Source: a virus. Taken from it: DNA of 21,314 nucleotides. Each line of letters opens with the position of its first letter. Within the stretch, counting starts at the first letter, position 1. Under the pieces are notes generated by a model, which saw nothing but the letters and a program-made list of their open reading frames with translations, had not been told where the DNA came from and ran no database searches. Below are positions 5,282 to 18,343 of the stretch, one piece after another. Position numbers and translations under genes: made by a program. Where the stretch lies: IMG/VR virus record IMGVR_UViG_3300043449_001406, positions 1 through 21,314 of that record, one strand, 5' to 3'.

Positions 5282-7228
5282 TCAGGAAGCCATCACCCGA
5301 GCATCCACCTGAAAGCGACTGAGCGTGAACACCGCGCCCACGGGTGGAATTACCTCGCCAAGCTCGTTCTTACCGATCACCGACAACTCGAAGTAGAGGA
5401 AGCGACCCTGGAAAAGTCCAACCCAGTTCTCCGACTTCACCGGCCTCACATTCGCAGCCAAGTATTGAGCAGTCGTCCGGTCGTCGGGGCAGCGGATCTC
5501 CTTGTCGGTCATCCGATGCCAGAGCACTTCGCAAGAATCTCCGTCCGTGGTGAACTCCGCCTGCCACTCCGGTGCGAAATCGTCTGTCTCGTAGCCGAAA
5601 GCGAGCGGCTTCAGGTAGGGATTGGCGTCTCGCGCCTGATAGCTTGTCCCGATGCGTAGCCGCCAGTAGTTTGAGTCGCCGAGAAGGTCTTGAACGGTCG
5701 GCTCCATGAGGAACTGCCGGATGGACTTCTCGTAGTCCATGTTCCCCAGCGGGAACATCCCGCGAACGATGCTGAAATAGCCGTCGTTGACGTATTCCCC
5801 GATGAACGGGACGTAGTTGCCCTGCGCGTCGAAGGAACCTTCGCCAGTGGAAGCGTTCTCGCAGCGTTCCCGGCTGTAACTCGTGCCGAGCTGCTTGATG
5901 GAGTAGTCTTGCGAGGAGGCTCCAATGAAAAGCTGCTGCTGATTGCATTCCGTGCAGAAGTCATCAATGGTTTTTCCACCGATGTTGGCGCAGAGGCCGA
6001 GGAAATCGTCGGTGCAATACTCATCGAGCCACTCATCGAGGGTCTGGCGGCGGTCGCTGCGGTAGTTGGCGAAGACGGTGAAGCCGTGGTCAATGATGTC
6101 GGCGGTGTTGACCCGCAGATTCGCCTGAATGGTGCGGAAGTTGAGGCATCCCTCACCACTTTTCGGCCAGGACCAGAGGATTGTCTTCAGGTTTGGCCAG
6201 TATTCGCCCACCGGCCCGGAGCAGCAACTCGTGTCGAGGGTGTTAATGACCAGATTTGAGGAGCGCCACAGCCACTCCGGCTGTTGAGGTTCAGCCAGAT
6301 AGACGTTCCACTGGTAAAACGCATCCCGGCCAAGCCAGTAGAGGTTGTTACCGTCGCTCACCAAGGACTGCGGATAGACGAGGCACTTGTCCCGGTTCGT
6401 TGGCTCGGTATAGACGCGGGCAAACCCGAAGGAAGCCCCGTTCACGAAGCACCGATAGATGCTCTTATCGGTGAAGATTACCAGATTCCCCTGCAACTCC
6501 CGCGCTGCAAGGATAGTTTCCGTGTAGGGGAGGTCTTGAAAGTTCGCCACCGTGGCCGCTGAAGGCACCCACGTCAGCGGATTGTTCACACCGCTCCACC
6601 GGACACGGCTCGTGTAGCGGGTTCCTTCCTGAACGACGTTCATCAGGAAGATGCAGCCGTTGAAGTTAGCTGCGACCGCTGCCTGTGTAACGTCCAAAGT
6701 GTTCAGGTCGGCGATTTCGTTGACCGCCGAATCTCCGCAACCTGCTGGGAGCGTTCCGATGACGTAGCTCTGAGGCTTATCGCGGTTGTTCGTGAAGATG
6801 ATGGTGTTGCCAGCCTGCCCAACGGACCATCTGAGCTGGGTGGCAGTTGTTCCACCTCCAAATCCGCGTCCAATGCAGGTCCAATTACCAGTGCTCTCAC
6901 TCAGGATAGCGAGGGAGGATTGCTGGCCGCGAATCAGTCGGCGGATGCCAAGGTTGTTGGTGGCCTCGTAGAGCATCGTAATCGGCTCTCTAACGGGCGT
7001 GGTGTCGAAACAGTCTCCTTGGTCGTGCGCGTCTTGATTGACGTAAGGAGAGGCATCTGCGAGCAGCCGCTCCCATCCGTAGCCTCGGGCGAGCTTGTCG
7101 TTGTCGTCCACCATCATGTTCAACTTGAAGCGGAACGAGTTCGCGGGGGCGTCCTCCGGGTTCGTGCGCGAGTCCATCGGCCCAAGGAGAGGCCGTAGGA
7201 TGATGCCTTTGTAGGGGGTGGTGGACAT
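5282..7228 (-). CDS. Tail nozzle-like beta-propeller protein (T7 gp12-like)
   Basis: A 648-residue protein. Its ATG shares one base with the upstream TAA (TAATG). Repeated beta-strand blocks include RVRWSGVNNPLTW (about residues 208-220), LQGNLVIFTDKSIYRCF (about 245-261) and NNLYWLGRDAFYQWN (about 294-308). This succession (R-x-R-W-S, then L-V-I-F-x-x-x-S-I-Y-R, then Y-W-L-x-x-x-x-F-Y) resembles beta-propeller blades of podovirus tail nozzle or tubular proteins of the gp12 type and related tail-stem proteins. In that family the protein forms the hexameric distal tail tube. The C-terminal half is richer in Cys (a CC pair and clustered Cys about residues 400-425). It closes the minus-strand operon directly after two tail-tip genes, as a tail protein would. 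The nozzle assignment is motif-based inference. Confidence 0.6.
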   Translation of the reverse strand: MSTTPYKGIILRPLLGPMDSRTNPEDAPANSFRFKLNMMVDDNDKLARGYGWERLLADASPYVNQDAHDQGDCFDTTPVREPITMLYEATNNLGIRRLIRGQQSSLAILSESTGNWTCIGRGFGGGTTATQLRWSVGQAGNTIIFTNNRDKPQSYVIGTLPAGCGDSAVNEIADLNTLDVTQAAVAANFNGCIFLMNVVQEGTRYTSRVRWSGVNNPLTWVPSAATVANFQDLPYTETILAARELQGNLVIFTDKSIYRCFVNGASFGFARVYTEPTNRDKCLVYPQSLVSDGNNLYWLGRDAFYQWNVYLAEPQQPEWLWRSSNLVINTLDTSCCSGPVGEYWPNLKTILWSWPKSGEGCLNFRTIQANLRVNTADIIDHGFTVFANYRSDRRQTLDEWLDEYCTDDFLGLCANIGGKTIDDFCTECNQQQLFIGASSQDYSIKQLGTSYSRERCENASTGEGSFDAQGNYVPFIGEYVNDGYFSIVRGMFPLGNMDYEKSIRQFLMEPTVQDLLGDSNYWRLRIGTSYQARDANPYLKPLAFGYETDDFAPEWQAEFTTDGDSCEVLWHRMTDKEIRCPDDRTTAQYLAANVRPVKSENWVGLFQGRFLYFELSVIGKNELGEVIPPVGAVFTLSRFQVDARVMAS

Positions 7229-8013
7229 TACCAGACAATTCTAACTGCCCCATCAGTCCCGCTTGTTCCAGCCGCCCCTGAACCTGAGCCGCCAGCGCCA
7301 CCGCCGCCTTTAGCAAGGCCAACTGATGCGCCTCCAGAACCAGCACCGCAAGTTGGAGGATACGCCAATGATGCTCCACCAGCGTTGCCACTGGTCCCAG
7401 TCCCACCGGAACCGCCAGAACCGCCTGCGCCTCCAGCCCTAGCAACATTGCAAGCTCCGTAAGTTCCTCCGCTTCCACCCACCGCAAGGACGTATTCCGC
7501 CCCATAGCTGACCGAGGAGACTTGGCCGGAGCCTCCGTTGAAGACGCCTCCAACTCCGCCAGAACCAACAACGATTGTGACGGTATCCCCAGGTGTCACC
7601 GCAAATGTATGCACGCGCTTTTCACCGGAGCCGCCACCAGATCCAACACCAGTGTAAGGAGCAATGCAGAAGGCGCACGTTCCGCCGCCACCCGCACCAC
7701 CACCACCAACAACTGTGACAGTAATTTCCGTAATGCCGCCCGGCACCACCCAATCCTGAGAAGCTGTGAACGTCTCGCTTCCTCCGCCGCTTGGAGTTGT
7801 AGATGTAGATGTTCCACCCCCGCCACCACCACAGCCTGTCGCGCAAATCTTTTCCTTAAACGCTTCCGTGAATGAGAGGTTCTCGTTGTAGATGCAGGAG
7901 TAAGCGTCGGACCAGAGCCGCGATGCTGGCCCGAGCTTGCTCAACGCCTCGCACACCGAGGAGTTTTGGTCAATAATCAGGGCTTGGAAGTCCGATGGTG
8001 TTGGGCAACTCAT
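7228..8013 (-). CDS. Tail-tip / adhesin-like protein with poly-glycine domain
   Basis: A 261-residue protein with an ATGA overlap with the upstream paralogue. Residues 1-62 match the neighbouring 76-aa protein (MS-x-P-x-P-S ... CE-x-L ... FTE-x-F ... IC ... CGG). A Ser/Thr/Gly linker (about 66-80) follows. Residues about 80-261 form a glycine-rich domain that opens with a strand of the type FTASQDWVVPGGITEITVTV, runs through VVGGGGAGGGG-like stretches, and closes with GAVRIVW. This pattern is typical of phage tail-fibre glycine-rich domains; in adhesins such as S16 gp38 such stretches form polyglycine-II helix sandwiches with receptor-binding loops. It is therefore a good candidate for receptor binding at the tail tip. 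Several Cys lie in the Gly-rich loops. The receptor is unknown. Confidence 0.7.
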   Translation of the reverse strand: MSCPTPSDFQALIIDQNSSVCEALSKLGPASRLWSDAYSCIYNENLSFTEAFKEKICATGCGGGGGGTSTSTTPSGGGSETFTASQDWVVPGGITEITVTVVGGGGAGGGGTCAFCIAPYTGVGSGGGSGEKRVHTFAVTPGDTVTIVVGSGGVGGVFNGGSGQVSSVSYGAEYVLAVGGSGGTYGACNVARAGGAGGSGGSGGTGTSGNAGGASLAYPPTCGAGSGGASVGLAKGGGGAGGSGSGAAGTSGTDGAVRIVW

Positions 8014-8240
8014 GGTGATGTGGAGCTTGAACCGCTGCCACCGCAGTCAGCATTGCAAATCTCACTGGTAAATTCTTCCGTGAAGGTTCCATCCTCGTTG
8101 AACCACGCCGCCCACCACCGATGCAGCAAAGCCTGCAAGCCAGTCTCTCGGTCCATCAAGGCACGCAACTCCTCGCAGGTGGGATTGTCTGGGTTGGCAG
8201 GAACAAGCGCCTCGAACTCAGATGGCAGTGGCAACGACAT
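8010..8240 (-). CDS. Small tail-tip protein paralogous to next gene's N-terminus
   Basis: A 76-residue protein. Its whole length aligns with the N-terminal domain of the poly-glycine protein that follows: same opening (MS-x-P-x-P-S-E/D-F), C22-E, a Trp/Tyr-rich middle, N-E, F-T-E-x-F, then I-C61 and C66-G-G, ending in a Ser-rich tail (SGSSSTSP). It therefore looks like a stand-alone copy of a tail-attachment domain. ATGA overlap couples its translation to the paralogue. A 34-nt gap separates it from the glycosyltransferase upstream, the largest gap nearby, and holds a motif shared with the region before the capsid gene. A minor tail or fibre-attachment role is inferred. Confidence 0.65.
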   Translation of the reverse strand: MSLPLPSEFEALVPANPDNPTCEELRALMDRETGLQALLHRWWAAWFNEDGTFTEEFTSEICNADCGGSGSSSTSP

Positions 8241-8258: not shown

Positions 8259-8275
8259 GCCAATACTTTATCGTT
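8259..8275 (-). promoter_or_regulatory. Shared 17-bp upstream motif, copy 1
   Basis: On the minus strand this reads AACGATAAAG-N3-TGGC. The same pattern (14 of 17 positions identical) lies just upstream of the putative capsid gene at 20058-20074. Here it overlaps the glycosyltransferase stop and precedes the tail-tip genes by about 20 nt. It may be a phage promoter or translation element; with only two copies, chance is possible. Confidence 0.3.
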
Positions 8276-9213
8276 CAAGCCCAAAACCGAGGCATTCCAA
8301 ACCGCTCCAGAAACTCCTCTAACGACCGCGTGAACACCCGCTCCGCAAAGACCCTTTCGACCTCGATGTTAGCCTGGTCGTTTCGGAACAGGTCTATGGC
8401 AATCTTGAAGTCCTGCGCCGGGAGCGCGTGCTGGTGCATCTTCGCCACCAGAAACGCTGTAGCGTCCTCTGGGAAGAGCGTGGCCGCAATCATCAGCTTG
8501 TTGTAGAGCGAGGCGGAAATCTTGTAGGTGTAGGTGGTGGCGGTCCTGAACTGGTGTCCTATCCGCACATCCGTCATCTGCTTGCATTCGCCACCGGCCA
8601 GCCAGACTTTCAGCGAGAGGTAAGGCTCCGAGGAACCCCAGTGGCGAAGCATCCTCATACCGCCAATCTTGAAGAACAGGCTTCGGGGCATGAAGTAGGC
8701 GGCTCCCAAGACGCACGGTATCACGTCGTTGTTCTTGGGGTGTTGAGCTTGGGGTATCCACACCGGCTCAATGAACTGCATAAGGTGCGGCTTGTTCTTG
8801 TTCGGCCCGAAGAAGTTCAGAGTGGCACCATTGTAAAACCTGTTCTCCGGCTTCATCTGCATGTCCGCCGCGTTCAGGTGGACGCAGGTGCAGCCCCAGA
8901 GGGTGCTGTCGCTGGATTCCAGCCGGTCGAGCGCCTTCTCATACCAACCCGGCTCAAAGCGCATGTGGGCGTCTATGATGAGCAGGTGCTTCCGGCTGGC
9001 CATCGTAGCGGCGATGTGGCGGGCTGGCCCCACACCAGCCCTTCCGTGGACGGTCCTGAACACGACGTTCTTATCGTCCAGCTTGAGCGGTTGGTCGGAG
9101 CCATCATCCAAAACTACGACTTCGGGGAGGTCGCCAGCCGTCTCCCTGATGGAGCGAATCGTGGCGTTCGTTTCCTCTTGGTCATTCCGGCAGGTGATGC
9201 AGACGGAGATCAT
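8275..9213 (-). CDS. GT27-like (polypeptide GalNAc-transferase-like) glycosyltransferase
   Basis: A 312-residue GT-A-fold glycosyltransferase. The start (ISVCITCRNDQ) and VVVLDDGSD (residues 33-40) are the usual nucleotide-binding part. Residues 80-83 give IDAH, the DxH metal-binding motif of polypeptide GalNAc-transferases (GT27), rather than the DxD of ordinary GT2 enzymes. Further on, CVLGAAYFMPRSLF, GGM, SSEPYLSLKVWLAGGE (about 194-209) and IGHQFR (H220) follow the order of GT27 motifs (acceptor-site segment, E-x-x-x-x-x-x-x-W-x-x-G-G, then the G-H metal ligand). In that family the enzyme transfers GalNAc to Ser/Thr. The gene sits between tail genes next to Thr/Ser-rich virion proteins. 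The actual sugar and acceptor cannot be read from sequence. Confidence 0.8.
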   Translation of the reverse strand: MISVCITCRNDQEETNATIRSIRETAGDLPEVVVLDDGSDQPLKLDDKNVVFRTVHGRAGVGPARHIAATMASRKHLLIIDAHMRFEPGWYEKALDRLESSDSTLWGCTCVHLNAADMQMKPENRFYNGATLNFFGPNKNKPHLMQFIEPVWIPQAQHPKNNDVIPCVLGAAYFMPRSLFFKIGGMRMLRHWGSSEPYLSLKVWLAGGECKQMTDVRIGHQFRTATTYTYKISASLYNKLMIAATLFPEDATAFLVAKMHQHALPAQDFKIAIDLFRNDQANIEVERVFAERVFTRSLEEFLERFGMPRFWA

Positions 9214-9216
9214 TTA

Positions 9217-9423
9217 CTAGTATGCCTTGACCGTTCTGAAGTCGAATGGGCCTTCATCGGTTTCGATGATGTGCATTTCTGTGATAACACAGCCAGTATC
9301 GCGGCAGATTCTCGCCATTAGTTCATGCGCTTCCTGCCAGCCACCAGCGATGATCCGCTCCACCCTGGCTTCAGGCTTATCGTTGTTGCCGAGGATCACG
9401 GCCTCCACTTTGTAGATTTTCAT
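9217..9423 (-). CDS. Small hypothetical protein
   Basis: A 68-residue protein with an ATGA overlap with the upstream 58-aa zinc-knuckle ORF and a 3-nt gap to the glycosyltransferase downstream. The start (MKIYKVEAVILGN) and a later segment (VITEMHIIETDEGPFDFR) suggest a compact alpha/beta fold with two beta strands; C40 and C45 are present. No known family is recognised. Its position inside the operon is the only functional hint. Confidence 0.55.
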   Translation of the reverse strand: MKIYKVEAVILGNNDKPEARVERIIAGGWQEAHELMARICRDTGCVITEMHIIETDEGPFDFRTVKAY

Positions 9424-9596
9424 AAGTCGTGCAGCATTCTAGCGGCTTCCATTGGAACAGCGCCACCTAGTTGCATCACGCCATTTTTGCAGTTTCCATT
9501 TCCGCAAATTGGACATCGCGTCTTAGCTTTTAACTTGCGAGGGCTTCGGGTGGGCTTCTCTCGCGGAGGCGGGGCGGTATTGGTTTGGCGTCTCAT
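9420..9596 (-). CDS. Unlisted 58-aa zinc-knuckle-like ORF
   Basis: Read directly on the minus strand: ATG at 9596, stop TGA at 9422-9420, 58 codons. The N-terminal third is basic and Pro-rich (MRRQTNTAPPPREKPT), then TRCPICGNGNCKNGVM carries C28-x2-C31-x4-C36, a zinc-knuckle or zinc-ribbon half; H56 could be a fourth ligand. The ORF lies 11 nt after the stop of the upstream 83-aa gene and ends in an ATGA overlap with the 68-aa gene, as neighbouring genes do, which is good evidence that it is real. It fills what would otherwise be a 184-nt gap. The function is unknown; the composition suggests RNA/DNA or protein binding. Confidence 0.65.
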   Translation of the reverse strand: MRRQTNTAPPPREKPTRSPRKLKAKTRCPICGNGNCKNGVMQLGGAVPMEAARMLHDL

Positions 9597-9607
9597 AGCT
9601 TCACGTT

Positions 9608-9859
9608 CTAGCCCTTGTAGCGAACAAACTCAAAGTCATACCAGCTCCAGTCCGAATTCCACGCCAACTCCTCCGAGCAAAGCCTGAACGTGGCAATCTT
9701 TCCACTTTCCATCTTTACGTCAATCTGGCTGCCGATGACGATTGGAGAGCCGTGATTTCTCCAGAAAGTAGAGCATCCATGCGTGCGGAACGGCCTTGGA
9801 ATCGGAGCCTTTGGCGAACGGAAGACGAATGTAAGCCACTTGAGGAATTTTAAGATCAC
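9608..9859 (-). CDS. Small Trp-rich hypothetical protein
   Basis: An 83-residue protein from a GTG start that overlaps the upstream stop as GTGA. The N-terminal helix (ILKFLKWLTFVFRSPK) is hydrophobic with a basic end and could associate with a membrane, but it is too short to be sure of a transmembrane segment. A central beta-rich part (SPIVIGSQIDVKMESG) and a Trp/acidic end (WNSDWSWYDFEF) follow. I recognise no family. The start is chosen because the GTGA overlap matches the pattern of this operon. Confidence 0.55.
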   Translation of the reverse strand: MILKFLKWLTFVFRSPKAPIPRPFRTHGCSTFWRNHGSPIVIGSQIDVKMESGKIATFRLCSEELAWNSDWSWYDFEFVRYKG

Positions 9860-10056
9860 TGCTTACACCTCCTCAAAAGGTAATCCCTCGCAGCAACCAT
9901 CTCCAGACGCTCCTCCACAAGCTCCTCGTAGCGCTCCTTCTGCTCGGCATCCCACTCGCCGGTCAACTCCCCAAGAGCGGACGCTATCTGCTCGTGCTCG
10001 CGGTCAATCTCGGCGAGGACTTCTGCGACGGTGGATTGTTGGGTGAGTGGGTTCAT
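9856..10056 (-). CDS. Small coiled-coil protein
   Basis: A 66-residue, strongly charged protein. It is almost entirely helical with heptad-like Leu/Ile/Val spacing from about residue 10 to 60 (EVLAEIDREHEQ ... EERLEMVAARDYLL), typical of a short coiled coil. An ATGA overlap couples it to the methyltransferase upstream and GTGA to the next gene. Small coiled-coil proteins in phage tail operons may be chaperones or minor structural parts, but no specific role can be stated. Confidence 0.55.
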   Translation of the reverse strand: MNPLTQQSTVAEVLAEIDREHEQIASALGELTGEWDAEQKERYEELVEERLEMVAARDYLLRRCKQ

Positions 10057-10583
10057 GGGTGGGATGTGTCAGGCTTTAGAAATGCGACCCAGTGAGTCGC
10101 GCTCTGCTTTCCGGATTTGTGTCCGAACAGCGGTCGATGGCTGGTTAATGCCAGCACCTCGGAAACTGGGTAGTCCGATTCCGCCCACTTGAATATCAGA
10201 GTCCCGTGCGGCTTCAGCACCCGGAAGCACTCCCGGAAGCCTTGCCGCAGCGTTTCTCGCCAGTCTCCTGTCAGGTGGCCATATTTCTTTGTCAGCAGCC
10301 CCAGCGCAGCAGTTCGTTCGATGTGCGGCGGGTCGAAGACCACAAGCGCGAATGTGTCATCCGGGAACGGAAGGCTTGTGAAGTCGGCCAGCATGTCAGG
10401 GTTTACCACGATTGGGCTTCGCCCGATTGTGCCCGGAGTGCCAATGTCTATTGGATGCGTCTCGCGGCGTTTATCCACAAACAGAGCGCGGTCATCTTCC
10501 TTATCAAACCAAAACATGCGGCTCCCACAGCAGGCATCCAGCACTGGTGGAAAATTAGAAGTCTTTTCAGTGGCATCTGTCAT
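10053..10583 (-). CDS. Class I SAM-dependent methyltransferase
   Basis: A 176-residue protein with a Rossmann-type methyltransferase pattern. LDACCGSRMFWF (residues 15-26) serves as SAM-binding motif I. FVDKR (35-39) is the second strand. VVFDPPH (81-87) is a catalytic D-P-P-H motif of the kind seen in DNA N6-adenine-type and related small-substrate enzymes. Then W108, GFRECFRVLKPHGTLIFKW (115-133) is the strand-helix-strand of the core, and PLFGHKSGK/THW is characteristic of phage copies of this family. ATGA overlaps on both sides place it within the glycosyltransferase run. Substrate is open: it could methylate DNA or cap the sugars made by its neighbours. No restriction enzyme is nearby. 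Confidence 0.75.
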   Translation of the reverse strand: MTDATEKTSNFPPVLDACCGSRMFWFDKEDDRALFVDKRRETHPIDIGTPGTIGRSPIVVNPDMLADFTSLPFPDDTFALVVFDPPHIERTAALGLLTKKYGHLTGDWRETLRQGFRECFRVLKPHGTLIFKWAESDYPVSEVLALTSHRPLFGHKSGKQSATHWVAFLKPDTSHP

Positions 10584-11296
10584 GGATGCGCTTTCAGATA
10601 TTCCCGCGTGAGCTGCCAGTAGTCGTGCTGCCAGCGCGGATGCAGCGTCACCTTACCGCGCCTCGGCATGGCCTTCATCACGAGCCGCTTGACGGTCTGC
10701 ATTCCATTGAGCTGCCCCGGTCGGTCTGGTCCCGTGCGGGAGATGTTGCTGGAGTGCCATCGGTAGAGGAAGCCAGCATCCTCTGGTCGGCATTCCACAC
10801 GAGCACCACCGAAGCGATTCGCCAGCAGCTTCCTGAAGCCCTTGTCCTCCCCGGAGTTCTCGTGGGGGAACCCACCAACAGAAGCCCATGCCGACTTCCT
10901 GAAAAGCGACTGGTTGGTGGCTTGCTCTGCCATCCCGATGATTCTCCCATTGCGAAGGCAGAAGCGGCGGTCCTGCCGAATCCAATCCCGGCCTTCCAAC
11001 CTGGATGCCAGCCATGAGAGGTATCCCGGCAGGATGATGTCGTCGTCGTCGAGGTTGAGGATGTATTCCCCTTCGCACTTCTCAATGCACCTGTTCCGGG
11101 TTTCTCCAAGGGTGGCCGGTCTGGAGTAGGCATTGATAACGCGCACGCCGGGAGCAGTGCAGACCAAATGCTGCCGCTCGTAGGTGTTGTAGATCACCAT
11201 CTCCTTGTGGGGATAGTCCTGCCGGAGAAAGCTCTCGATGGCTTCCTCCAGCATCCCCGTGCGGGCGTAGGTGAGGGTGGCGCAGGAGATTTTCAC
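10580..11296 (-). CDS. GT2-type glycosyltransferase
   Basis: A 238-residue GT-A-fold protein. I choose GTG 11296 because it overlaps the upstream TGA as GTGA; the longer reading from 11335 would run through the neighbour's last codons. It opens VKISCATLTYARTGMLEEAI, the usual GT2 start of strand plus helix. ETRNRCIEKCEGEYILNLDDDD (residues about 65-86) contains the D-D-D-D metal and nucleotide-sugar motif after the R-N element. Later parts, GGFPHENSGEDKGF and a Trp/His-rich end, match the acceptor half. The enzyme would transfer sugar from an NDP-donor in the cytoplasm. Acceptor and sugar cannot be told from sequence. It follows the nucleotidyltransferase gene directly. Confidence 0.75.
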   Translation of the reverse strand: MKISCATLTYARTGMLEEAIESFLRQDYPHKEMVIYNTYERQHLVCTAPGVRVINAYSRPATLGETRNRCIEKCEGEYILNLDDDDIILPGYLSWLASRLEGRDWIRQDRRFCLRNGRIIGMAEQATNQSLFRKSAWASVGGFPHENSGEDKGFRKLLANRFGGARVECRPEDAGFLYRWHSSNISRTGPDRPGQLNGMQTVKRLVMKAMPRRGKVTLHPRWQHDYWQLTREYLKAHP

Positions 11297-11955
11297 AGCT
11301 TGGCAATTTCTGGCGCAGCCACCTCCGAAAGCCAATTCACAAGGTCCGTCGGATAATCGAAGTCGCGCGATTTTCCGGGAACATCAATGTAACGGTCCAG
11401 CGGGGTCGGGTGGTTTGGAAATGGATAAATCTCGCCCAGTGACGCCTCCAATGGCAGTCCGTTCCAATGCCGCAACATCCTCCAAGATCCGCCAGCCGTC
11501 TCCCCCCTTCCCTCCATTTGCAAAACGGCATCCATGCTCGATTTCCAGCGAAGCAGTTCGGGTTTTGCACAAAACGACGCTAGTATTTCGTAATAAGCAA
11601 TGTTCCCAAACCACAAGCTCTCATCCCGACACAGCCCGCAGATTTTGTCCACGGCAGCATTTTCAAAGAAGACATCTCCGTGAACAAACAACACGTTTCC
11701 GCCACCACCCCACAACCGTTCCGAAGAGGCAAACTTGTCGGTGTTTTTATCTCCCGGAGCAGGCTTGTGGATGATGGCACCATTCGCTGAAAACCCATCG
11801 CCAACTATCCACACTTTTCCATGCTTGGAAAACTGCCGCACGGTTCGGTGAAGCAGAGGCTCTCCAGACACGTTGATCAACTGTTTGGGAACGCCGGTGA
11901 AGTTTCCCCACCGAGAGCCAAGACCTCCACACAAAATCAGAATCTTCTCGATCAT
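11293..11955 (-). CDS. Sugar-1-phosphate nucleotidyltransferase-like protein
   Basis: A 220-residue protein. The N-terminus ILILCGGLGSRWGNFTGVPK (residues 5-24) carries the signature G-G-x-G-x-R ... P-K of sugar-phosphate nucleotidylyltransferases (and MobA-like relatives), followed by QLINVSGEPLLHRTV. A later VHGDVFF (about 90-96) fits the D-containing metal and nucleotide motif of the same fold. Such enzymes make NDP-sugars (or CDP-activated alcohols) from NTP and a sugar phosphate, so it would feed the glycosyltransferases around it. ATGA and GTGA overlaps tie it to its neighbours. Which NTP and sugar are used is unknown; a LicC-like cytidylyltransferase is also possible. Confidence 0.75.
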   Translation of the reverse strand: MIEKILILCGGLGSRWGNFTGVPKQLINVSGEPLLHRTVRQFSKHGKVWIVGDGFSANGAIIHKPAPGDKNTDKFASSERLWGGGGNVLFVHGDVFFENAAVDKICGLCRDESLWFGNIAYYEILASFCAKPELLRWKSSMDAVLQMEGRGETAGGSWRMLRHWNGLPLEASLGEIYPFPNHPTPLDRYIDVPGKSRDFDYPTDLVNWLSEVAAPEIAKL

Positions 11956-12701
11956 CGGATAAGCATTGCTGGGTTAATAAACACCTTGCCGCCACGCTTT
12001 CGGATAGCTTGATTGAAAGCGACATGCTCCACATCTCCTCCATGAAATGTGCTTCTCATGCTATATCTACACCCCTCTATGGAAGATGTTCTGTAGATTC
12101 CAAGCCCGTTGAAAGCCGACTCAACCTCAATCGGTGGTAGGTGTCTCGGTATCGCTTTTTTGTGAGCGTGGATGAATTTATCTATCGCCTCCTCACCGCT
12201 CATGGAAGACGGCCTACCATGAACCATCTTCCAGCAATCGTATGGACACCACTCCGAACGCAGCGCCCAAATGTCGTAATACTTGGTTGTGTTAGCAGTC
12301 ATCGCCGCCCATCCGTCATGCTTAAAGCTGCTAAGAATGCTTTCTGTTGGAATTGGCTCCTGGCATATCCCGTCCATATCCAGCACTATCAGGAAGTCCT
12401 TCCTGTCTTTCCACAGCTCATCTAGGCAGGCGTTCCGACACTCCGGCAAACGCTCCGTCCTGCTTTTTAGCCGACTAGCCATGCCGTCAAGGTTAATGAC
12501 CCTTCTGGAAGCTCCGTCGCTGCTCCACGCCTTCAAGGATCCCAGAGTTCCATCCTCGTTATCATTCGTAACAACCACATACGAAGCATTTTTGAACAAC
12601 CCACCTATAGAGGCGAAGTTCGCCAAAACGCCGGGAAGATGTTTTTCGACGTTCCGCGCACAGCCGCAGACCTGAACGGAGTGTTTTGATGTATCTATCA
12701 T
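11952..12701 (-). CDS. Glycosyltransferase-like protein (DxD, Cys-rich)
   Basis: A 249-residue protein. ATG 12701 is preferred to TTG 12716 because it forms an ATGA overlap with the upstream stop. It has a Rossmann-like N-terminal half: SVQVCGCARNVEKHLPG, YVVVTNDNEDGT (about 41-52), then R81-T-E-R-L-P-E-C-R-N90. FLIVLDMDG (about 103-111) provides a D-x-D metal motif. A conserved-looking region around residue 146 (KYYDIWALRSEWCPYDCW) and a basic C-terminus follow. The order 'R-x(5)-C-R-N, then D-x-D' resembles poorly characterised GT-A-type families (CAP59/GT69-like). I am fairly sure it is a glycosyltransferase, less sure of the family. Confidence 0.6.
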   Translation of the reverse strand: MIDTSKHSVQVCGCARNVEKHLPGVLANFASIGGLFKNASYVVVTNDNEDGTLGSLKAWSSDGASRRVINLDGMASRLKSRTERLPECRNACLDELWKDRKDFLIVLDMDGICQEPIPTESILSSFKHDGWAAMTANTTKYYDIWALRSEWCPYDCWKMVHGRPSSMSGEEAIDKFIHAHKKAIPRHLPPIEVESAFNGLGIYRTSSIEGCRYSMRSTFHGGDVEHVAFNQAIRKRGGKVFINPAMLIR

Positions 12702-13564
12702 AAGGCCCACTGGCAAATTTCTGGAAGCATTCTTGCACAGTCAAAACGTGAAGCGTCTGCACGCTGCGCCGCCGCATCGCGCTCCGCAACATCCCATCTA
12801 ACCCTCTTCACTTCCGCAACAGCAGCATCCACGTCGCTCGCCTCGAACCGCTGCAAATCCAAGACGTAGCAACCGCAGGAAGCGGCCTCCAACGGGCGCG
12901 GCATGGAGCGCTCAATCTCACCATGCCCGCTCCTGAGATTTATCACGCCGCAAAACGCGTTGTATAACGCAACGAGCATTTCAGGGTTCGACTTCGGACA
13001 CTTCACATCAACAACCAACCCGTGATTCTTCAACGCCTTCAGAATTGCCATCCGCTGCTCACCGTATGCTGTTCCAACAAACAGGAACAGTTTTGTTCTA
13101 TCCGAAAACTCGGTCGTTTTGCGACACTTTTCAAAGGCGAACGGGAACGCTCCAATCTTCATGGTTGGCAACCCGGTCAACTGCAACTGCCTGTATTCCT
13201 CCGAATTTGTGCCCCTATCAAATCCGACAAGATGCGTTGCACACGCCACCGCGTTGGCAAATTTATCACGAAATTCAGGTCTGGCCCTTTTCGCAAATAC
13301 TAGCTCATTGGCTAGAAGTATTCTCTTTCCTCGAAGAGACTTAAACGCAGACCGCTTTTCAGCAGAGTCAAAAAGCCAGCCAAGCTGAGTTGTGCCACCA
13401 AAGAAAACACACCTTGCGTCGCTCGCGCCACATGCAGCGATCACCTCAGAAACATTGTTGTGACCACTTTCAATAGCAACCCCAAGCCCACGCTCCATCA
13501 CCACGTCTCCAACCCACGAAGAGCACGACGCTGGCTCGTTTGCAGGGTAAATGAAAACTATCAC
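12698..13564 (-). CDS. GT-B fold glycosyltransferase-like protein
   Basis: A 288-residue protein starting at GTG 13564. The C-terminal half shows the GT4/GT1 hallmarks: FLFVGTAYGEQRMAILKAL (about 161-178) at the start of the donor-binding domain, and RSMPRPLEAASCGCYVLDL (about 219-237), the E-x-x-x-C-G-x-x-V donor-sugar motif. The N-terminal half is shorter than in most GT4 enzymes. A CgeB-like or DUF-type GT4 relative is plausible. A 153-nt gap with a strong inverted repeat precedes it, the longest minus-strand gap within the cassette. It overlaps the next gene as ATGA. Donor sugar and acceptor are unknown. Confidence 0.7.
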   Translation of the reverse strand: MIVFIYPANEPASCSSWVGDVVMERGLGVAIESGHNNVSEVIAACGASDARCVFFGGTTQLGWLFDSAEKRSAFKSLRGKRILLANELVFAKRARPEFRDKFANAVACATHLVGFDRGTNSEEYRQLQLTGLPTMKIGAFPFAFEKCRKTTEFSDRTKLFLFVGTAYGEQRMAILKALKNHGLVVDVKCPKSNPEMLVALYNAFCGVINLRSGHGEIERSMPRPLEAASCGCYVLDLQRFEASDVDAAVAEVKRVRWDVAERDAAAQRADASRFDCARMLPEICQWAL

Positions 13565-13717
13565 AATGCGGGTCTGGCGGAATTGACTTGGGCTAACATT
13601 CCTGAAATGGTTTCCCTAGCGTCAATCATTCGCGCATGTTGGTTGATGTTAGCACCGGGCAGGCTTGTCAGATGGACTGCCCGGTGCGTTCCATCTAGCC
13701 GCCAGCTTTGGCGGATG
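13565..13717. other. 153-nt intergenic region with two hairpins
   Basis: The longest gap inside the sugar cassette. It holds an 11-bp perfect GC-rich inverted repeat (arms GCACCGGGCAG at 13652-13662 and CTGCCCGGTGC at 13677-13687, 14-nt loop) and a 6-bp stem with a 4-nt loop (CCGCCA/TGGCGG, 13699-13714). Neither is followed by a U-tract, so these are not textbook terminators. A 22-codon minus-strand reading from ATG 13629 would end in TGA overlapping the next GTG; it lacks a Shine-Dalgarno and is not called. No other gene is seen. Confidence 0.6.
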
Positions 13718-14275
13718 TCAAGCGCGTTTGTTGCTGCGATAGCGATAGTAGTAGATCGTCTGCGGGATGTCTCCTTGGGTCTTCAAGAGCGGCTGAACGC
13801 GCTTGCTGAAGTCGTGGTCTTCCCCAAAGCTCTTCTCGGGGAATCCAGCTTGAAGTGCCAGATCGAGGCGAATCGCATTCAAATGGTTCGGCATCCTCCA
13901 ATAGACGCCATCCTTCTCGTGCCACTTCTGGCAGGTGACAGTGTGGATGAACGGCTTCGGGTTCTTCCCGTCGGTGGTAATCTCACCGCGCAGCTCGGCG
14001 CAGTCCGGCTTTGAGCGGAGGGCTTGCAGGACGAGCTGAACGTAATTCACTGCCACCTCGTCGTCATCATCCACAAAGGCGACGTATTCCCCTCTGGCCC
14101 GCTTCATAAGTGCGTTCCGCTTGGCTCCGATGCAGACATTCTTGCCGCGATTGTCGGTCAGGATTTCGACTGGGAATCCGCGAGCCTGCTTTTCAAGTGA
14201 TGCCATCAGGCGACGCAGAAACATCGCACGCTCTGGCAGGGTGCAGATGAGGATGCTGAGAACGAATGGGCTCAT
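13718..14275 (-). CDS. GT2-type glycosyltransferase
   Basis: A 185-residue GT-A-fold protein. ATG 14275 is chosen because it overlaps the upstream TGA as ATGA; the longer reading from 14377 runs into the neighbour. It opens MSPFVLSILICTLPERAM, the first GT2 strand. NVCIGAKRNALMKRARGEYV leads into AFVDDDDEV (about 67-74), the metal-binding D-D-D-D motif. FGEDHDFSKRV (about 155-165) is the E-D catalytic region. Length is on the short side for GT2 but all core elements are present. A hairpin-bearing gap follows its stop. The sugar and acceptor are unknown. Confidence 0.75.
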   Translation of the reverse strand: MSPFVLSILICTLPERAMFLRRLMASLEKQARGFPVEILTDNRGKNVCIGAKRNALMKRARGEYVAFVDDDDEVAVNYVQLVLQALRSKPDCAELRGEITTDGKNPKPFIHTVTCQKWHEKDGVYWRMPNHLNAIRLDLALQAGFPEKSFGEDHDFSKRVQPLLKTQGDIPQTIYYYRYRSNKRA

Positions 14276-14928
14276 TTGGGGAAGCCAGCAGCCTTCCTCC
14301 GCTCGTAGTTCGGTTTGTCCACGCACCACAAATTGCTGTTGCGAATGAACGTGGCATCTTTTCCCGTCTTTGCCCACTCGTGCTTGAACAGGCAGAGCGG
14401 AGACTTGACCGACTTGCCATCCCGCTCAGTCACATCTTGGAACTCGTTATCGCAGAACTCCGAACGATACGAGGGGTGGTAGATGTAGCCCCACGAATCA
14501 ATCAGCTTCTTCCCCGCTATCGGCATCGTGTTCAGGCCATGCTTGTTAAGGCCGTCATCAAAGTGCAGGCAGCCGTCCATGTCGGGAAAGTGCCTCATCA
14601 TCAACTGCTCGATGGTGACATCATAGTTGCGCACCTGCGGAACCATGTCGTCAGAGGCGAGGATGAGCACGTCGTAGTCGCCCAGCTTGTCGAAGTTCGC
14701 GTTGACAGCCTCAATCTTCCCCTTCGATGCGCCGACATACACCTTCATGTCGCGCTGCCGGGAGATGAACGCCTGCACGTCGGCGGCGTGCATCGTCCGG
14801 TCGTCCTCGTCAATGGACACCACAAAGCGGACTGGATTGCGGCGGGAAAGGAATGCCCGATACTTCTGCACCTGCCGGATGAACTGCCCCGGCCTGCCCC
14901 TGGTGGGATACTTGATTACGAAGCGCAT
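14272..14928 (-). CDS. GT-A fold glycosyltransferase-like protein
   Basis: A 218-residue protein starting at ATG 14928, inside the end of the zinc-ribbon ORF (119-nt overlap). RFVIKYPTRGRPGQF (residues 2-16) and FVVSIDEDDRTM (35-46) are GT-A-type strands; YDVLILASDDMVPQ (85-98) gives the D-D-M metal motif; a later YIYHPSYRSEFCDNEFQDV region is typical of the acceptor half. It is the first sugar-transfer gene of the cassette, just after the adaptor gene block. ATGA overlap couples it to the next glycosyltransferase. Specificity is unknown. Confidence 0.7.
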   Translation of the reverse strand: MRFVIKYPTRGRPGQFIRQVQKYRAFLSRRNPVRFVVSIDEDDRTMHAADVQAFISRQRDMKVYVGASKGKIEAVNANFDKLGDYDVLILASDDMVPQVRNYDVTIEQLMMRHFPDMDGCLHFDDGLNKHGLNTMPIAGKKLIDSWGYIYHPSYRSEFCDNEFQDVTERDGKSVKSPLCLFKHEWAKTGKDATFIRNSNLWCVDKPNYERRKAAGFPK

Positions 14929-15118
14929 GTTGTTCTGTCAGATACTTGTCGTTTCGGGCTGTGCATCGGTCGCATCTAAACCGCCCGTCTTGGTTTAGCC
15001 GAATCTGTAGCAGGTCGAACTGGTCGTGGCAATCAGCGCATTCGTTCAGCGTTTCCTGCTCGTCCACTCCAATGATAGGCACCCGGAAGCCGTGGAATGG
15101 GACGAAGGAGATGTTCAT
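14810..15118 (-). CDS. Small zinc-ribbon ORF overlapping the next gene
   Basis: A 102-residue ORF starting at ATG 15118 with an ATGA overlap with the upstream 48-aa ORF. Residues 27-30 (CADC) and 50-53 (CDRC), separated by 19 residues, form a four-cysteine zinc-ribbon-like module (NECADCHDQ ... RFRCDRC). After about residue 63 it runs in another frame over the first 119 nt of the following glycosyltransferase, and that tail is low-information. The zinc module and the overlap pattern argue for a real gene; the unusual length of overlap leaves open a frameshift near the true stop. Confidence 0.5.
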   Translation of the reverse strand: MNISFVPFHGFRVPIIGVDEQETLNECADCHDQFDLLQIRLNQDGRFRCDRCTARNDKYLTEQHALRNQVSHQGQAGAVHPAGAEVSGIPFPPQSSPLCGVH

Positions 15119-15287: not shown

Positions 15288-17768
15288 TCATAGCGTGACT
15301 CCTGTGTATCCGCCAAACACGGCAACACTCTCCGGCAACCGCTCCTCACACCAGTTTTGAGAACTTGTTCCAGAATCAGTTACACTTCCATCCAAAGGAC
15401 TGTTCAGAGTTTGCTCCAACGTCCAAATGCACGTTTCAGAATTTCTCCTGAACACAAAAGACGCATCACCAAAATATCCCGGCGCATTCTCGTATGTGAC
15501 AGCTCCGCTCACGGTTCCGACGTATTGAACCTCACCGCCAACAACCTGCTTTGTGCAGACAACCCCATAGCCAAAACTGAATCCGCCGGATGCTGGAAGT
15601 GATCCGTAACCGCCACCAATAAAGAGGCTGTTCGGAAGATCATCGCAGCACAAATCAGGTGCCGCAGTTGTAGTTGTAGTGCTACCTCCAGTTGTTGTCG
15701 TGGTTGTAGTCGGCGGTATCGGTGGGAGAATCACGCAGCCACCCTCGCCAACGATTCCGTTGGCGGACACACCTGAAAGAACCACCACATCGCCGGGTGC
15801 GTATTTGGTTCCCGGCGTGAAGCCGACATCACTCAGAGAGACGCTGCTGCCATCCGAGCTGACAGCATTCACCTGACCAAGAATCCACTGGCCATCCAGC
15901 ACGAACACTACCCACGTTCCCGTCACAACCACCGCTGGAACAATCGTTTTATCAGGGCTAAGTTTTGTTGCAATGTTGAAAGTGTATGAAACTTCCCTTT
16001 GATCGTTTGCCTCAAGCTTAATGCACCCCTCTTCCGGGTCTTCCCCTACGCACTCAATGCTGTGAGTGGTGTAAAACTTCGTTCCGTCCTCAAGAAAGAT
16101 TATCAGCTTGTAGTGAGAACCAGTGCTCGGACGACCAACCGACTCTCCAAACATAGCCCACGAATGAGCGTCGTCACCCGGCTCGTTCAGGTTTGTTGTA
16201 TAAGAATGGTTAATCTGCCCGCCGTCATCAAGCACCAGCGGGAATGTGGCAAAATTGCCGTTGATGAGATACTGAGTAGCCCACGCTCGGCCACTTGACC
16301 AGACGCCATTCTCATCCGTCTCATACATCTCCAGCCGCTTTACTATGGAGCCAGCGTTGAAGGCAAACTCAAGCCTCCAGTTGATGTCCTTGCTACCATC
16401 CGGGGTGAACACATACCAACGTCCAGCTCGGTCTGTATCAGTGCAAAGAACTGTCAGCACTGGAGCAGAGCCGGTCTTGGTAGGATCGTCAGGAGGATTC
16501 AGGTAGTCCTGCGCCGAGATGTAGTCCGACGAGTTCTCAGGAGACGGGCAGACGCCAAGGAATGCGACAGCGTTGATGTTGTATCCAGAAGCAAGCTGGA
16601 AAGGACCGCTGTAACGATTGCTTGCGCGGGTTGGCTCTGATCCATCCGTGGTGAAGTAAATCTCCGCACCATCTGTTGCAGACGTGATCGTGACCCACGT
16701 TGGATAGGTAACAATCGCACCGGACGGCGGATCAAATTCAGGAGCTTCGACCGGAACACATCCAGGGACTCCCCCTCCAGCTCCACCCGGATTTGAACCG
16801 CCAGCGCCAGCGCTCCCACCGTTGCCGGGATACTGCAATGTGGCTGGAATCGGCTCTGGATCTCCATTGATGCGAATGTCCGCCTGCCGCGCATTGCTAC
16901 CCTCACAGCCACGCACACGGGTTTCCTCTCGGCAATCCCGCATGAGGCCGCGCAGAGCCATGATCCAGTCCTTCTCCGCCTGCGCTGCCGCTACGTCGTC
17001 CCGCTCGTAGTCTTTCAGGTGATTCCAGAGAACGTAGTAGCGCACGGCCCGCTTGAGCTGTGCGTTGTCCACCACGAGGTCAAGGTCATCCCAGTCGGCC
17101 TTGATGCCGTCCCACTCCACAATCACCGTCTCGGTGCTCTGGAGCCACGGCGCGAGGTAGATGCGGCCCCGCTCCAGCGACCAGACACCATGCCGGGAGC
17201 GTCCCCATCGGGAATCCGTGGAGGCTTGCGGCTGGTAGTGGTGCCCCAACGGGAGCGCAGGGCTGGCGAGATACTCCGCATCGGTTGGCGTCGGGAAGTT
17301 TCCCTTCTGGCACGAAGCGCCGGGGAACCCGAACAGGCCGCTGAAGTTGGCGTTCCCGCCACCGCAGCTTATGCAGGCTGCCACCTTCTGCTGATACTTG
17401 AGCAGCTCGCAGTAAGGCACCTGCTTGTAGTAGATGCGAGAACACCATTGATCAGGAGCCGCTGCTGATTCGAGCTGTGTCTCCGGGTCAATCTGGTCAA
17501 TAACGGACAGGCGGCGAATCGTGTTGGCGATGCTTCCAGCAACCAACGCACCGGGAGCCTCCATCACGTTCAACCCGCAGGTGTAGAACCGAGAGCAGGC
17601 CCGGTAGAGCTGGCTGTTGTTGTATTGGTAGCAGTCTGCCCAACGCTGGATCTCAATCAACGCTTCCGTGAAGAACTTGTTGTGAGGGAGAATCAGGTTC
17701 TCCGCCTCTCCCTGTGGCCACAGGAGCGGCTGCAACTCGGACTTCAGGTTGGCGTAGGTGTAAGGCAC
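15288..17768 (-). CDS. Adaptor-like protein fused to chitobiase-C-terminal-like domain and Thr-tract
   Basis: An 826-residue protein with a GTG start 2 nt after the upstream stop. Residues 1-about 300 (PYTYANLKSELQPLLWPQ start; helix- and Trp-rich with several Cys) fit a head-tail adaptor or upper-tail protein, as expected after the capsid gene. A Gly-rich linker (about 315-333) leads to a chitobiase/beta-hexosaminidase C-terminal-like module at about 344-405 with the core AEIYFTTDGSEPT. Later domains are beta-rich. At residues 687-701 is a Thr tract of 12 Thr in 15 residues (nt 15666-15710), then a CC-containing C-terminal domain of about 120 residues. A single protein combining a connector with several surface beta-domains is unusual; the domains could be virion-surface decorations or carbohydrate-contacting. 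The adaptor role is inferred from order and N-terminal character. Confidence 0.6.
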   Translation of the reverse strand: MPYTYANLKSELQPLLWPQGEAENLILPHNKFFTEALIEIQRWADCYQYNNSQLYRACSRFYTCGLNVMEAPGALVAGSIANTIRRLSVIDQIDPETQLESAAAPDQWCSRIYYKQVPYCELLKYQQKVAACISCGGGNANFSGLFGFPGASCQKGNFPTPTDAEYLASPALPLGHHYQPQASTDSRWGRSRHGVWSLERGRIYLAPWLQSTETVIVEWDGIKADWDDLDLVVDNAQLKRAVRYYVLWNHLKDYERDDVAAAQAEKDWIMALRGLMRDCREETRVRGCEGSNARQADIRINGDPEPIPATLQYPGNGGSAGAGGSNPGGAGGGVPGCVPVEAPEFDPPSGAIVTYPTWVTITSATDGAEIYFTTDGSEPTRASNRYSGPFQLASGYNINAVAFLGVCPSPENSSDYISAQDYLNPPDDPTKTGSAPVLTVLCTDTDRAGRWYVFTPDGSKDINWRLEFAFNAGSIVKRLEMYETDENGVWSSGRAWATQYLINGNFATFPLVLDDGGQINHSYTTNLNEPGDDAHSWAMFGESVGRPSTGSHYKLIIFLEDGTKFYTTHSIECVGEDPEEGCIKLEANDQREVSYTFNIATKLSPDKTIVPAVVVTGTWVVFVLDGQWILGQVNAVSSDGSSVSLSDVGFTPGTKYAPGDVVVLSGVSANGIVGEGGCVILPPIPPTTTTTTTGGSTTTTTAAPDLCCDDLPNSLFIGGGYGSLPASGGFSFGYGVVCTKQVVGGEVQYVGTVSGAVTYENAPGYFGDASFVFRRNSETCIWTLEQTLNSPLDGSVTDSGTSSQNWCEERLPESVAVFGGYTGVTL
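15666..15710 (-). repeat. Thr-codon tract in adaptor-like gene
   Basis: Fifteen codons of which twelve are Thr (7 Thr, Gly-Gly-Ser, 5 Thr). The codons are mixed ACT, ACA, ACC and ACG rather than a simple nucleotide repeat, indicating selection at the protein level. Such linkers are common O-glycosylation sites. Confidence 0.85.
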
Positions 17769-17770
17769 GT

Positions 17771-18265
17771 TCAGGCTGCTACTGGCTCAGGAGCGTCTGC
17801 GAAGCGTTGCTTGCGAGGCCGACCCAGCCGGACTGGCTTGGGGGCGGGTTGCACCGCATCGGCGAGGGTGGCGTCACCCTTCGGGAGCAGTGTGTTCGGC
17901 TGCGCTTCAGGCTTGGGCTCACTGGGATTGTTGCTGGCGGCGGCGTCCACAGACGGAGCAGCCGCTTGTTTTCGGGGGGTGAGGTCGTTGCGGAGGACGC
18001 GCATTGGCCCGCCTAAGCTGGACAATTTTGTCGCGGGCTTGAAGTTCTTGCGGTTTTTTTTTAACTCGACGTAGCGAGCGTCGTCGATCTCGGTGATGCC
18101 ACGGCGATTGATGGACTTCACCAAGTCCTCAATAAGTTGACCCTTAGTGGCCGGGTCGAGGGCGATGACGCCGGTGTTACCCGGAAGAATCTCCCATGCG
18201 ATAGTCTTGCCATCGCGGTCTTTGAAGATGTTTTGGCTGAGGATTGCTTTCTTGAAGTAGCGCAT
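17771..18265 (-). CDS. Small virion/DNA-binding-like protein with AT-hook-like tail
   Basis: A 164-residue protein. ATG 18265 is preferred: the longer reading from 18325 would translate the terminator hairpin of the capsid gene. The N-terminal about 75 residues (MRYFKKAILSQNIFKDRDGK, then GVIALDPATKGQLI) form a compact alpha/beta domain. A Lys-rich strip follows, containing an A9 run (minus strand, 18054-18062). The last about 65 residues are Ala/Pro/Ser-rich and disordered, with RLGRPRKQR (residues 146-154) close to an AT-hook G-R-P core. It lies between capsid and adaptor genes, where small neck, completion or head-associated proteins are usual. The precise role is unknown. Confidence 0.55.
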   Translation of the reverse strand: MRYFKKAILSQNIFKDRDGKTIAWEILPGNTGVIALDPATKGQLIEDLVKSINRRGITEIDDARYVELKKNRKNFKPATKLSSLGGPMRVLRNDLTPRKQAAAPSVDAAASNNPSEPKPEAQPNTLLPKGDATLADAVQPAPKPVRLGRPRKQRFADAPEPVAA

Positions 18266-18280
18266 AGGCGGGACAGTATC

Positions 18281-18320
18281 CAAAGAAAACCGGGCCGTCC
18301 AGAGTTTCTGAACGGCCCGG
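18281..18320 (-). terminator. Intrinsic terminator after the capsid gene
   Basis: Minus strand: a 9-bp GC-rich perfect stem (CCGGGCCGT/ACGGCCCGG, arms at 18312-18320 and 18290-18298, 13-nt loop) followed at once by TTTTCTTTG. It sits 24 nt after the capsid stop and before the next gene's ATG. It would limit read-through, so capsid mRNA exceeds downstream tail mRNA. Confidence 0.85.
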
Positions 18321-18343
18321 CGCAATTTCTTGGGCCGCTGCGA

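Follow-up and report, generated by a model that had tools for sequence, protein, structure and literature searches.

Glycosylation of mycobacteriophage virions was reportedly described by Freeman et al. in 2023. For the mycobacteriophages Che8, Corndog and Myrna, modification of capsid and tail tube proteins by phage-encoded glycosyltransferases (GTs) has been reported (PMC12363180, PMC11256854), and Che8 gp110 is called essential for capsid glycosylation in one of these papers (PMC12363180). Here, a cassette of GT-like genes is analysed, which is located at positions 8275-14928 on the minus strand of an uncultured-phage fragment from IMG/VR (record IMGVR_UViG_3300043449_001406). The window comprises this fragment in full, with a length of 21,314 bp, and the cassette genes are designated by their lower coordinate.

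For Che8, gp108, which belongs to a three-GT cluster containing gp110, is 36.7% identical to GT13718 of the window (E 2e-15). However, the three Che8 GTs are located near the genome end, whereas six are present in a podovirus-like structural operon in the window, together with a nucleotidyltransferase-like gene, a relative of the polypeptide N-acetylgalactosaminyltransferases (GalNAc-transferases) and an exchangeable block. In Omegavirus LittleE, four GTs lie between the major head protein and the head-tail connector (gp15-gp21), and gp15 is 37% identical to GT13718; LittleE belongs to another phage lineage, and neither a GalNAc-transferase-like nor a nucleotidyltransferase gene is present in its annotation. 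In Streptomyces phage Wentworth, a 4.3-kb gene is followed by gp32-gp34, which are a GT, a homologue of the window's NT11293 and a methyltransferase. This set is shorter, no frame and block structure was seen, and no GalNAc-transferase-like enzyme is annotated. Bacterial O-antigen and capsule serotype cassettes consist of exchangeable glycan-gene blocks between conserved flanks and produce lipid-linked polysaccharides with a flippase and a polymerase; the window follows the same plan, but with soluble enzymes in a phage. The host recognition clusters of pelagimyophages are also hypervariable islands with GTs inside the structural region, though in T4-like myoviruses and as larger islands centred on tail fibres (PMC7029224). 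A sequence-only reading of the fragment had called a GT run of this size in a structural operon unusual; LittleE and the pelagimyophage islands are precedents for GT runs at such a location. Virion glycosylation in mycobacteriophages and a GT run among structural genes (LittleE) were thus known already. New within these searches are the GalNAc-transferase-like enzyme locked to gp10, the frame and block architecture, for which exchanges were demonstrated, and the wide range of decorating enzymes.

The locus is probably a module for the O-glycosylation of virion proteins with switchable glycan types. Shown directly are the gene content and its synteny, the fold predicted for GT8275 with its metal ligands, the exchange of blocks, purifying selection and the conservation of a Thr-rich linker. 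The cassette codes for six GT-like proteins, of which four are firm in family searches (14272, 13718, 10580 and 8275) and two are weak (11952 and 12698), one sugar-nucleotidyltransferase-like protein and one methyltransferase:

14272-14928, minus strand: GT14272, frame GT (phrog_14945 GT, 6.8e-13), 54-99% conserved at the site in relatives
13718-14275, minus strand: GT13718, frame GT2 (PF00535, 3.8e-8, passes the Pfam cut-off), ATGA overlap, start corrected from 14377
13565-13717, no strand: intergenic gap of 153 nt holding the upstream block edge; similarity to block-B phages stops at about 13582
12698-13564, minus strand: GT12698, block A, GT-B-like, weak (Glyco_trans_1_2, 0.0043, below the Pfam cut-off)
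11952-12701, minus strand: GT11952, block A, CAP59-like GT, weak (CAP59 PF11735, 7.2e-5, below the Pfam cut-off)
11293-11955, minus strand: NT11293, block A, MobA-like NTP-transferase, sugar-nucleotidyltransferase-like (PF12804, 6.2e-8; PDB 6jq8, 3.3e-4)
10580-11296, minus strand: GT10580, frame GT2 (PF00535, 1.2e-10, passes the Pfam cut-off), GTGA overlap; its start codon is the downstream block edge
10053-10583, minus strand: MT10053, DNA-methyltransferase family, accessory slot (phrog_954, annotated DNA methyltransferase, 1.2e-65)
9217-10056, minus strand: four small accessory-slot open reading frames (ORFs; 9856-10056, 9608-9859, 9420-9596 and 9217-9423), the first one conserved in close relatives
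8275-9213, minus strand: GT8275, polypeptide-GalNAc-transferase (GT27)-like (passes the PF00535 Pfam cut-off)

From GT14272 to GT8275, eight of the eleven junctions are 4-nt ATGA/GTGA overlaps, the exceptions being gaps of 153, 11 and 3 nt; the revised starts of 13718-14275, 11952-12701 and 10580-11296 were taken from relatives and overlaps. GT12698 has a 36% identical homologue at the same position in the relatives L047 and L048, but a family search with a 37%-identical relative gave no match either, so that its assignment stays weak. The GT11952 homologue in L047 matched CAP59 and Glyco_tranf_2_4, both below cut-off. NT11293 resembles nucleotidyltransferases of the 6-deoxy-mannoheptose pathway and glucose-1-phosphate nucleotidyltransferases, and its homologues in Streptomyces phages adjoin GTs. 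About 20 related contigs carry GT genes at the same place, and the ratio of nonsynonymous to synonymous substitution (dN/dS) of the cassette genes in comparison to relatives is 0.02-0.35. This shows that they are maintained under purifying selection and, together with the orthologues at the same site, excludes a chance origin. The six GT-like genes on one strand, the sugar-activating gene and the nearly continuous overlaps of the sequence-only reading were thus recovered, as was the location between adaptor and tail genes, with a P22 gp10-like gene downstream and an upstream adaptor named by position only. Several cassette GTs of L214, L018 and the window block match families named for eukaryotic enzymes, namely GalNAc-transferase, GT15 2-alpha-mannosyltransferase, GT34 GMA12/MNN10, CAP59, PLOD and TOD1/MUCI70.

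GT8275 is the cassette enzyme related to polypeptide GalNAc-transferases. Animal polypeptide GalNAc-transferases attach the first sugar of mucins and usually contain a lectin domain. In a phmmer search of the PDB with GT8275, all 16 significant matches were polypeptide GalNAc-transferases, among them the Toxoplasma enzyme (8uhv), and a profile of seven phage GT8275 sequences matched GalNAc-T10 with 6.7e-20, versus 4.8e-5 for the next family, GmaR. An AlphaFold (AF2) model obtained from 14 diverse phage sequences reached a predicted local distance difference test score (pLDDT) of 92.6, while a model from five closely related sequences (pLDDT 41) was discarded. The best 50 fold matches of the model in the PDB were GalNAc-transferases in 50 of 50 cases, with template modelling (TM) scores up to 0.77; weaker matches were identified among viral models. 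D81, H83 and H220, a DxH motif and a third His, align to D224, H226 and H359 of full-length GalNAc-T2, the Mn2+ ligands of that enzyme, and are invariant across the 14 sequences. W192 aligns to W331 of GalNAc-T2, with WGSSE standing where GalNAc-transferases have WGGEN; in the 14 sequences, G193 is invariant and W192 nearly so. The protein of 312 amino acids comprises a catalytic domain and a C-terminal helical segment. Compared to GT27 of CAZy (human GalNAc-T2 and T10), the predicted catalytic fold, the metal ligands and the W192/W331 pair are shared, whereas GT8275 is phage-encoded, only 18-20% identical, carries the altered motif and has no lectin domain; because of the missing lectin domain it was labelled GT27-like and not a full member. 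On the basis of sequence and model, GT8275 is related to the polypeptide GalNAc-transferases and may have a corresponding activity.

No feature of the locus is more constant than the position of GT8275 before gp10. In all relatives covering the site, the gene either directly precedes p76 and gp10 or lies just before gp10, and the adjacency holds at about 30% gp10 identity (L210, L212, L214 and L215). This ties GT8275 to the virion genes. An alignment of eight gp10 sequences was too divergent for a pattern scan.

The nearer relatives share one gene arrangement, with GT14272 and GT13718 before the block and GT10580 behind it, followed by the accessory slot, GT8275, p76, the Gly-rich protein and gp10, and the four frame GTs hold order and position down to about 50% identity of the major capsid protein (MCP). 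These four GTs form a fixed frame, which encloses an exchangeable block. Block A (GT12698, GT11952 and NT11293) was identified in the window, in G009 and G010, and in the distant L047 and L048 at about 50% MCP identity. Block B codes for an unassigned protein of 265 amino acids, a TylF O-methyltransferase (4.9e-37), a GT15 (PDB 1s4n, 9e-10) and a GT25; it is carried by G002, G003 and L031, is partly visible in L028, L030 and G004, and is present in G007 and L121 at 50-73%. Since each of the two blocks sits in closely and in distantly related frames, both circulate in the lineage. Further blocks contain a WbqC-like gene and a 437-aa protein (L029), GT10 and a pyruvyl transferase (L122), an alcohol dehydrogenase, E1 and transketolase-like proteins and an FkbM methyltransferase (L207), or GT34, TOD1/MUCI70 and PLOD-type GTs (L214).

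The block is swapped as a unit, and in each of two pairs of close relatives, which are independent of one another, the two blocks are unrelated. The window and G002 have 99% identical MCP-position proteins and 95.8% identical DNA up to window position ~13582; from there to 11296 no similarity exists, and it resumes at 81%. Outside the block, the identity of L207 to L122 is 87% on the upstream side and 95% on the downstream side, whereas a comparison of their blocks revealed neither DNA similarity nor significant protein similarity. The edges coincide in the two pairs: one lies just behind GT13718, the other at the GT10580 start. Frame and block exchange, which could not be seen from the one sequence, the GalNAc-transferase likeness of GT8275 and the persisting Thr-rich linker are additions to the sequence-only reading; of the checks it had named, profile searches (PF00535 passed by GT13718, GT10580 and GT8275, and GT14272 recognised by PHROG), structure prediction for GT8275 and the synteny comparison in relatives gave the results above.

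These exchanges also bear on the view that a recombination hotspot has loosely gathered the GTs, as auxiliary genes that are independent of one another and do not act on one shared glycan. The accessory slot between GT10580 and GT8275 does gather unrelated genes, including different DNA methyltransferases and, in L048, an integron integrase, and individual GT genes are internally mosaic. However, the conserved order of the frame GTs, the replacement of glycan enzymes by glycan enzymes in one unit and the purifying selection on the cassette genes make this view quite improbable. As to mosaicism, GT14272 is only 84% identical in the subset G003, G010, G001 and G004, with the differences of G010 in the C-terminal third, which suggests mosaicism inside the gene.

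In the accessory slot, phrog_954-type methyltransferases were identified in the window, G002 and L029, and a C5-methylase-like protein in G009; L048 combines an integron integrase with a DPPW-motif methyltransferase, while no methyltransferase was recognised in G010 and G003. Since the slot varies independently of the block, MT10053 was treated as DNA-directed and as outside the glycan pathway. The methyltransferase of the sequence-only reading is present, then, but probably does not belong to the glycan machinery, as relatives have other DNA methyltransferases or none at its position. A role as a sugar methyltransferase was set aside in view of the DNA-methyltransferase family match and of a slot holding unrelated DNA methyltransferases or none. 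In L048 (contig 3300020167_000153, 12533-15353), the gene for the integron integrase, which scores 268 bits with TIGR02249 (cut-off 265), overlaps the GT8275 homologue at its start, and L047 is arranged likewise. The attC-like sites of L048, located upstream of the integrase, flank small genes and the DPPW-motif methyltransferase. A strict attC scan missed them; a relaxed, fold-based scan yielded one (12857-12985), and two more were seen by eye (about 13884-13972 and 12533-12635). No attC-like site was found in the accessory slot of the window. Phage integrons carrying methyltransferase cassettes are already known (PMC9892861).

A DNA-methyltransferase-family gene in the same operon could also suit enzymes that glycosylate modified bases of the phage DNA against restriction, a role known for GTs of other phages (general knowledge; PMC7029224). 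This explanation has very little probability, as GTs and decorating enzymes in such number and variety would suit a polymer-borne oligosaccharide better than a base, and as PF00303 (thymidylate-synthase-type, the family of hydroxymethylpyrimidine synthases) was not found in six relatives, including G007; a control for this search gave matches in 9 of 14 genomes. For the Tet/JBP oxygenases (Tet_JBP, PF12851), no match was obtained in seven relatives, and the control likewise matched nowhere. Base hypermodification was rejected with the missing PF00303 gene in the six relatives.

The genes on both sides of the cassette contain candidate acceptors for an initiating enzyme:

20128-21314, minus strand: scaffold-position protein, role by gene order and size only
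18344-20062, minus strand: MCP-position protein, role by gene order and size only
17771-18325, minus strand: small protein between the MCP-position and adaptor-position genes
15288-17768, minus strand: adaptor-position protein of 826 amino acids, upstream flank of the cassette (CHB_HEX_C domain PF13290, 2.8e-16)
15666-15710, minus strand: Thr-rich, mucin-like linker TTTTTTTGGSTTTTT in the adaptor-position protein, candidate O-glycosylation site
8010-8240, minus strand: p76, small protein with a Ser/Thr tail (at about 8013-8039)
7228-8013, minus strand: Gly-rich tail protein (phrog_863, 4e-7; PF21722)
5282-7228, minus strand: P22 gp10-like virion protein, downstream flank (phrog_3287, 1.4e-25), resembling phage stabilization proteins

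The late genes of the window are all encoded on the minus strand. Family searches gave no match naming a function for the scaffold-, MCP- and adaptor-position proteins, and the product of 15288-17768 is called the adaptor by gene order and position only. In its linker, Ser or Thr occupies 13 of the 15 residues (0 of 500 shuffles), and a Thr-rich linker is kept across five divergent versions of the adaptor, while the linker sequence and the following domain differ. The N-terminus of the Gly-rich protein and p76 are paralogues with 32-38% identity; a small domain was apparently duplicated in tandem here, and most relatives retain the duplication. Ser/Thr-rich tails stand at the end of this common domain in most copies, and the Gly-rich protein contains a TSTSTTPS stretch at about 7789-7812. 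The adaptor linker, the p76 tail and the Ser/Thr stretch of the Gly-rich protein are candidate acceptors, as judged from their composition. Behind the linker, G003, G009, G010 and G007 carry unrelated sequences in place of the window's adaptor C-terminus (15288-15665), which is a second exchangeable element and apparently not linked to the block type.

For the proposed module, we infer the enzymatic activity, the acceptor, the order of sugars, the sugars themselves and the benefit as follows. GT8275 would most likely attach the first sugar to Ser or Thr of a tail or neck protein from the same operon, with the adaptor linker and the tails of p76 and the Gly-rich protein as candidate targets. 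The frame enzymes GT10580, GT13718 and GT14272, together with GT12698 and GT11952 of the block, would lengthen it into an oligosaccharide, and NT11293 would provide an activated sugar to the block enzymes. Since related phages swap the middle block in one piece, virions that are nearly identical in other respects would differ in their glycans, which would most plausibly alter adsorption or shield neck and tail. The blocks of the relatives supply TylF and FkbM methyltransferases, GT15, GT25, WbqC, GT10, pyruvyl transferase, GT34, TOD1/MUCI70 and a PLOD-type GT. More specifically, a podovirus-like uncultured lineage may perform mucin-type O-glycosylation of its own neck or tail, in which a gp10-linked, GalNAc-transferase-like initiator acts on Thr-rich linkers and the blocks determine glycan serotypes; this can be held only tentatively, at slightly less than an even chance.

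Several points weigh against virion-protein glycosylation. No Pfam match to a C-terminal ricin-type lectin domain was obtained for GT8275, which also lacks the full WGGEN motif of the animal enzymes, and a relatedness in predicted fold leaves donor and acceptor unfixed. Thr-rich linkers are found also in proteins without glycosylation. All data are metagenomic, and the system is known from its genes. Lipid-linked host glycans can be substrates of soluble GTs, and GT25, WbqC and pyruvyl transferase of the blocks are best known from lipopolysaccharide or capsule synthesis. The enzymes might then remodel the host surface polysaccharide during infection, excluding competing phages or preventing progeny from binding debris, with the late-operon site only setting the timing; host O-antigen modification is also the interpretation preferred for the pelagimyophage GT islands by their authors (PMC7029224). 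However, the most conserved enzyme of the locus is the polypeptide-GalNAc-transferase-like GT8275 tied to gp10, no membrane-type hydrophobic segment was found in the cassette GTs of the window, GtrA was not found in seven relatives, and six of the seven have no integrase. One of these six is G007, for which a 34-bp overlap between the contig ends suggests completeness. Remodelling of the host surface is thus considered unlikely. The signs of gtr-type serotype conversion (GtrA, membrane GTs and integrase) were not encountered, the sole integrase, in G014, being an integron integrase; conversion of this type was rejected with the absence of GtrA from the seven relatives. Modification of virion proteins, as proposed by the sequence-only reading, is the best-supported explanation in light of GT8275, its adjacency to gp10, the Thr-rich linker and relatives without GtrA or thymidylate-synthase-type genes.

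Further observations concern the flanks. At 18289-18321 (minus strand), the MCP-position gene is followed, ahead of the next gene, by a terminator-like hairpin with a 15-bp stem and a T-rich tail, which may reduce expression of all downstream genes, including the cassette. The gene after the MCP-position gene probably starts at ATG 18265 rather than at TTG 18325. An ORF of 102 amino acids with CxxC pairs (14810-15118, minus strand) overlaps the GT14272 start by 119 nt and is 96-99% conserved among close relatives; at its position, G007 contains a different Cys-containing ORF of 83 amino acids, ending in a 4-nt overlap with the GT. Genes of relatives were called on the late strand. A megablast search of phages with the window gave no match, tblastn with GT8275, GT12698 and the MCP-position protein, at the limits applied, gave no match in 50,697 phage records, and a search of bacterial genomes for a host with GT8275 and gp10 gave no match.

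That the polypeptide GalNAc-transferases have a relative in a phage is relevant to how mucin-type glycosylation arose, and GT8275 could serve as a small enzyme for O-glycoprotein production in the bacterial cytosol. Virion glycosylation is documented for few phages, and antibody evasion, a role discussed for it, would hardly account for it in environmental phages. The close relatives that differ in the glycan block are natural near-isogenic pairs, on which the role of a phage glycan in adsorption, shielding and competition can be studied.

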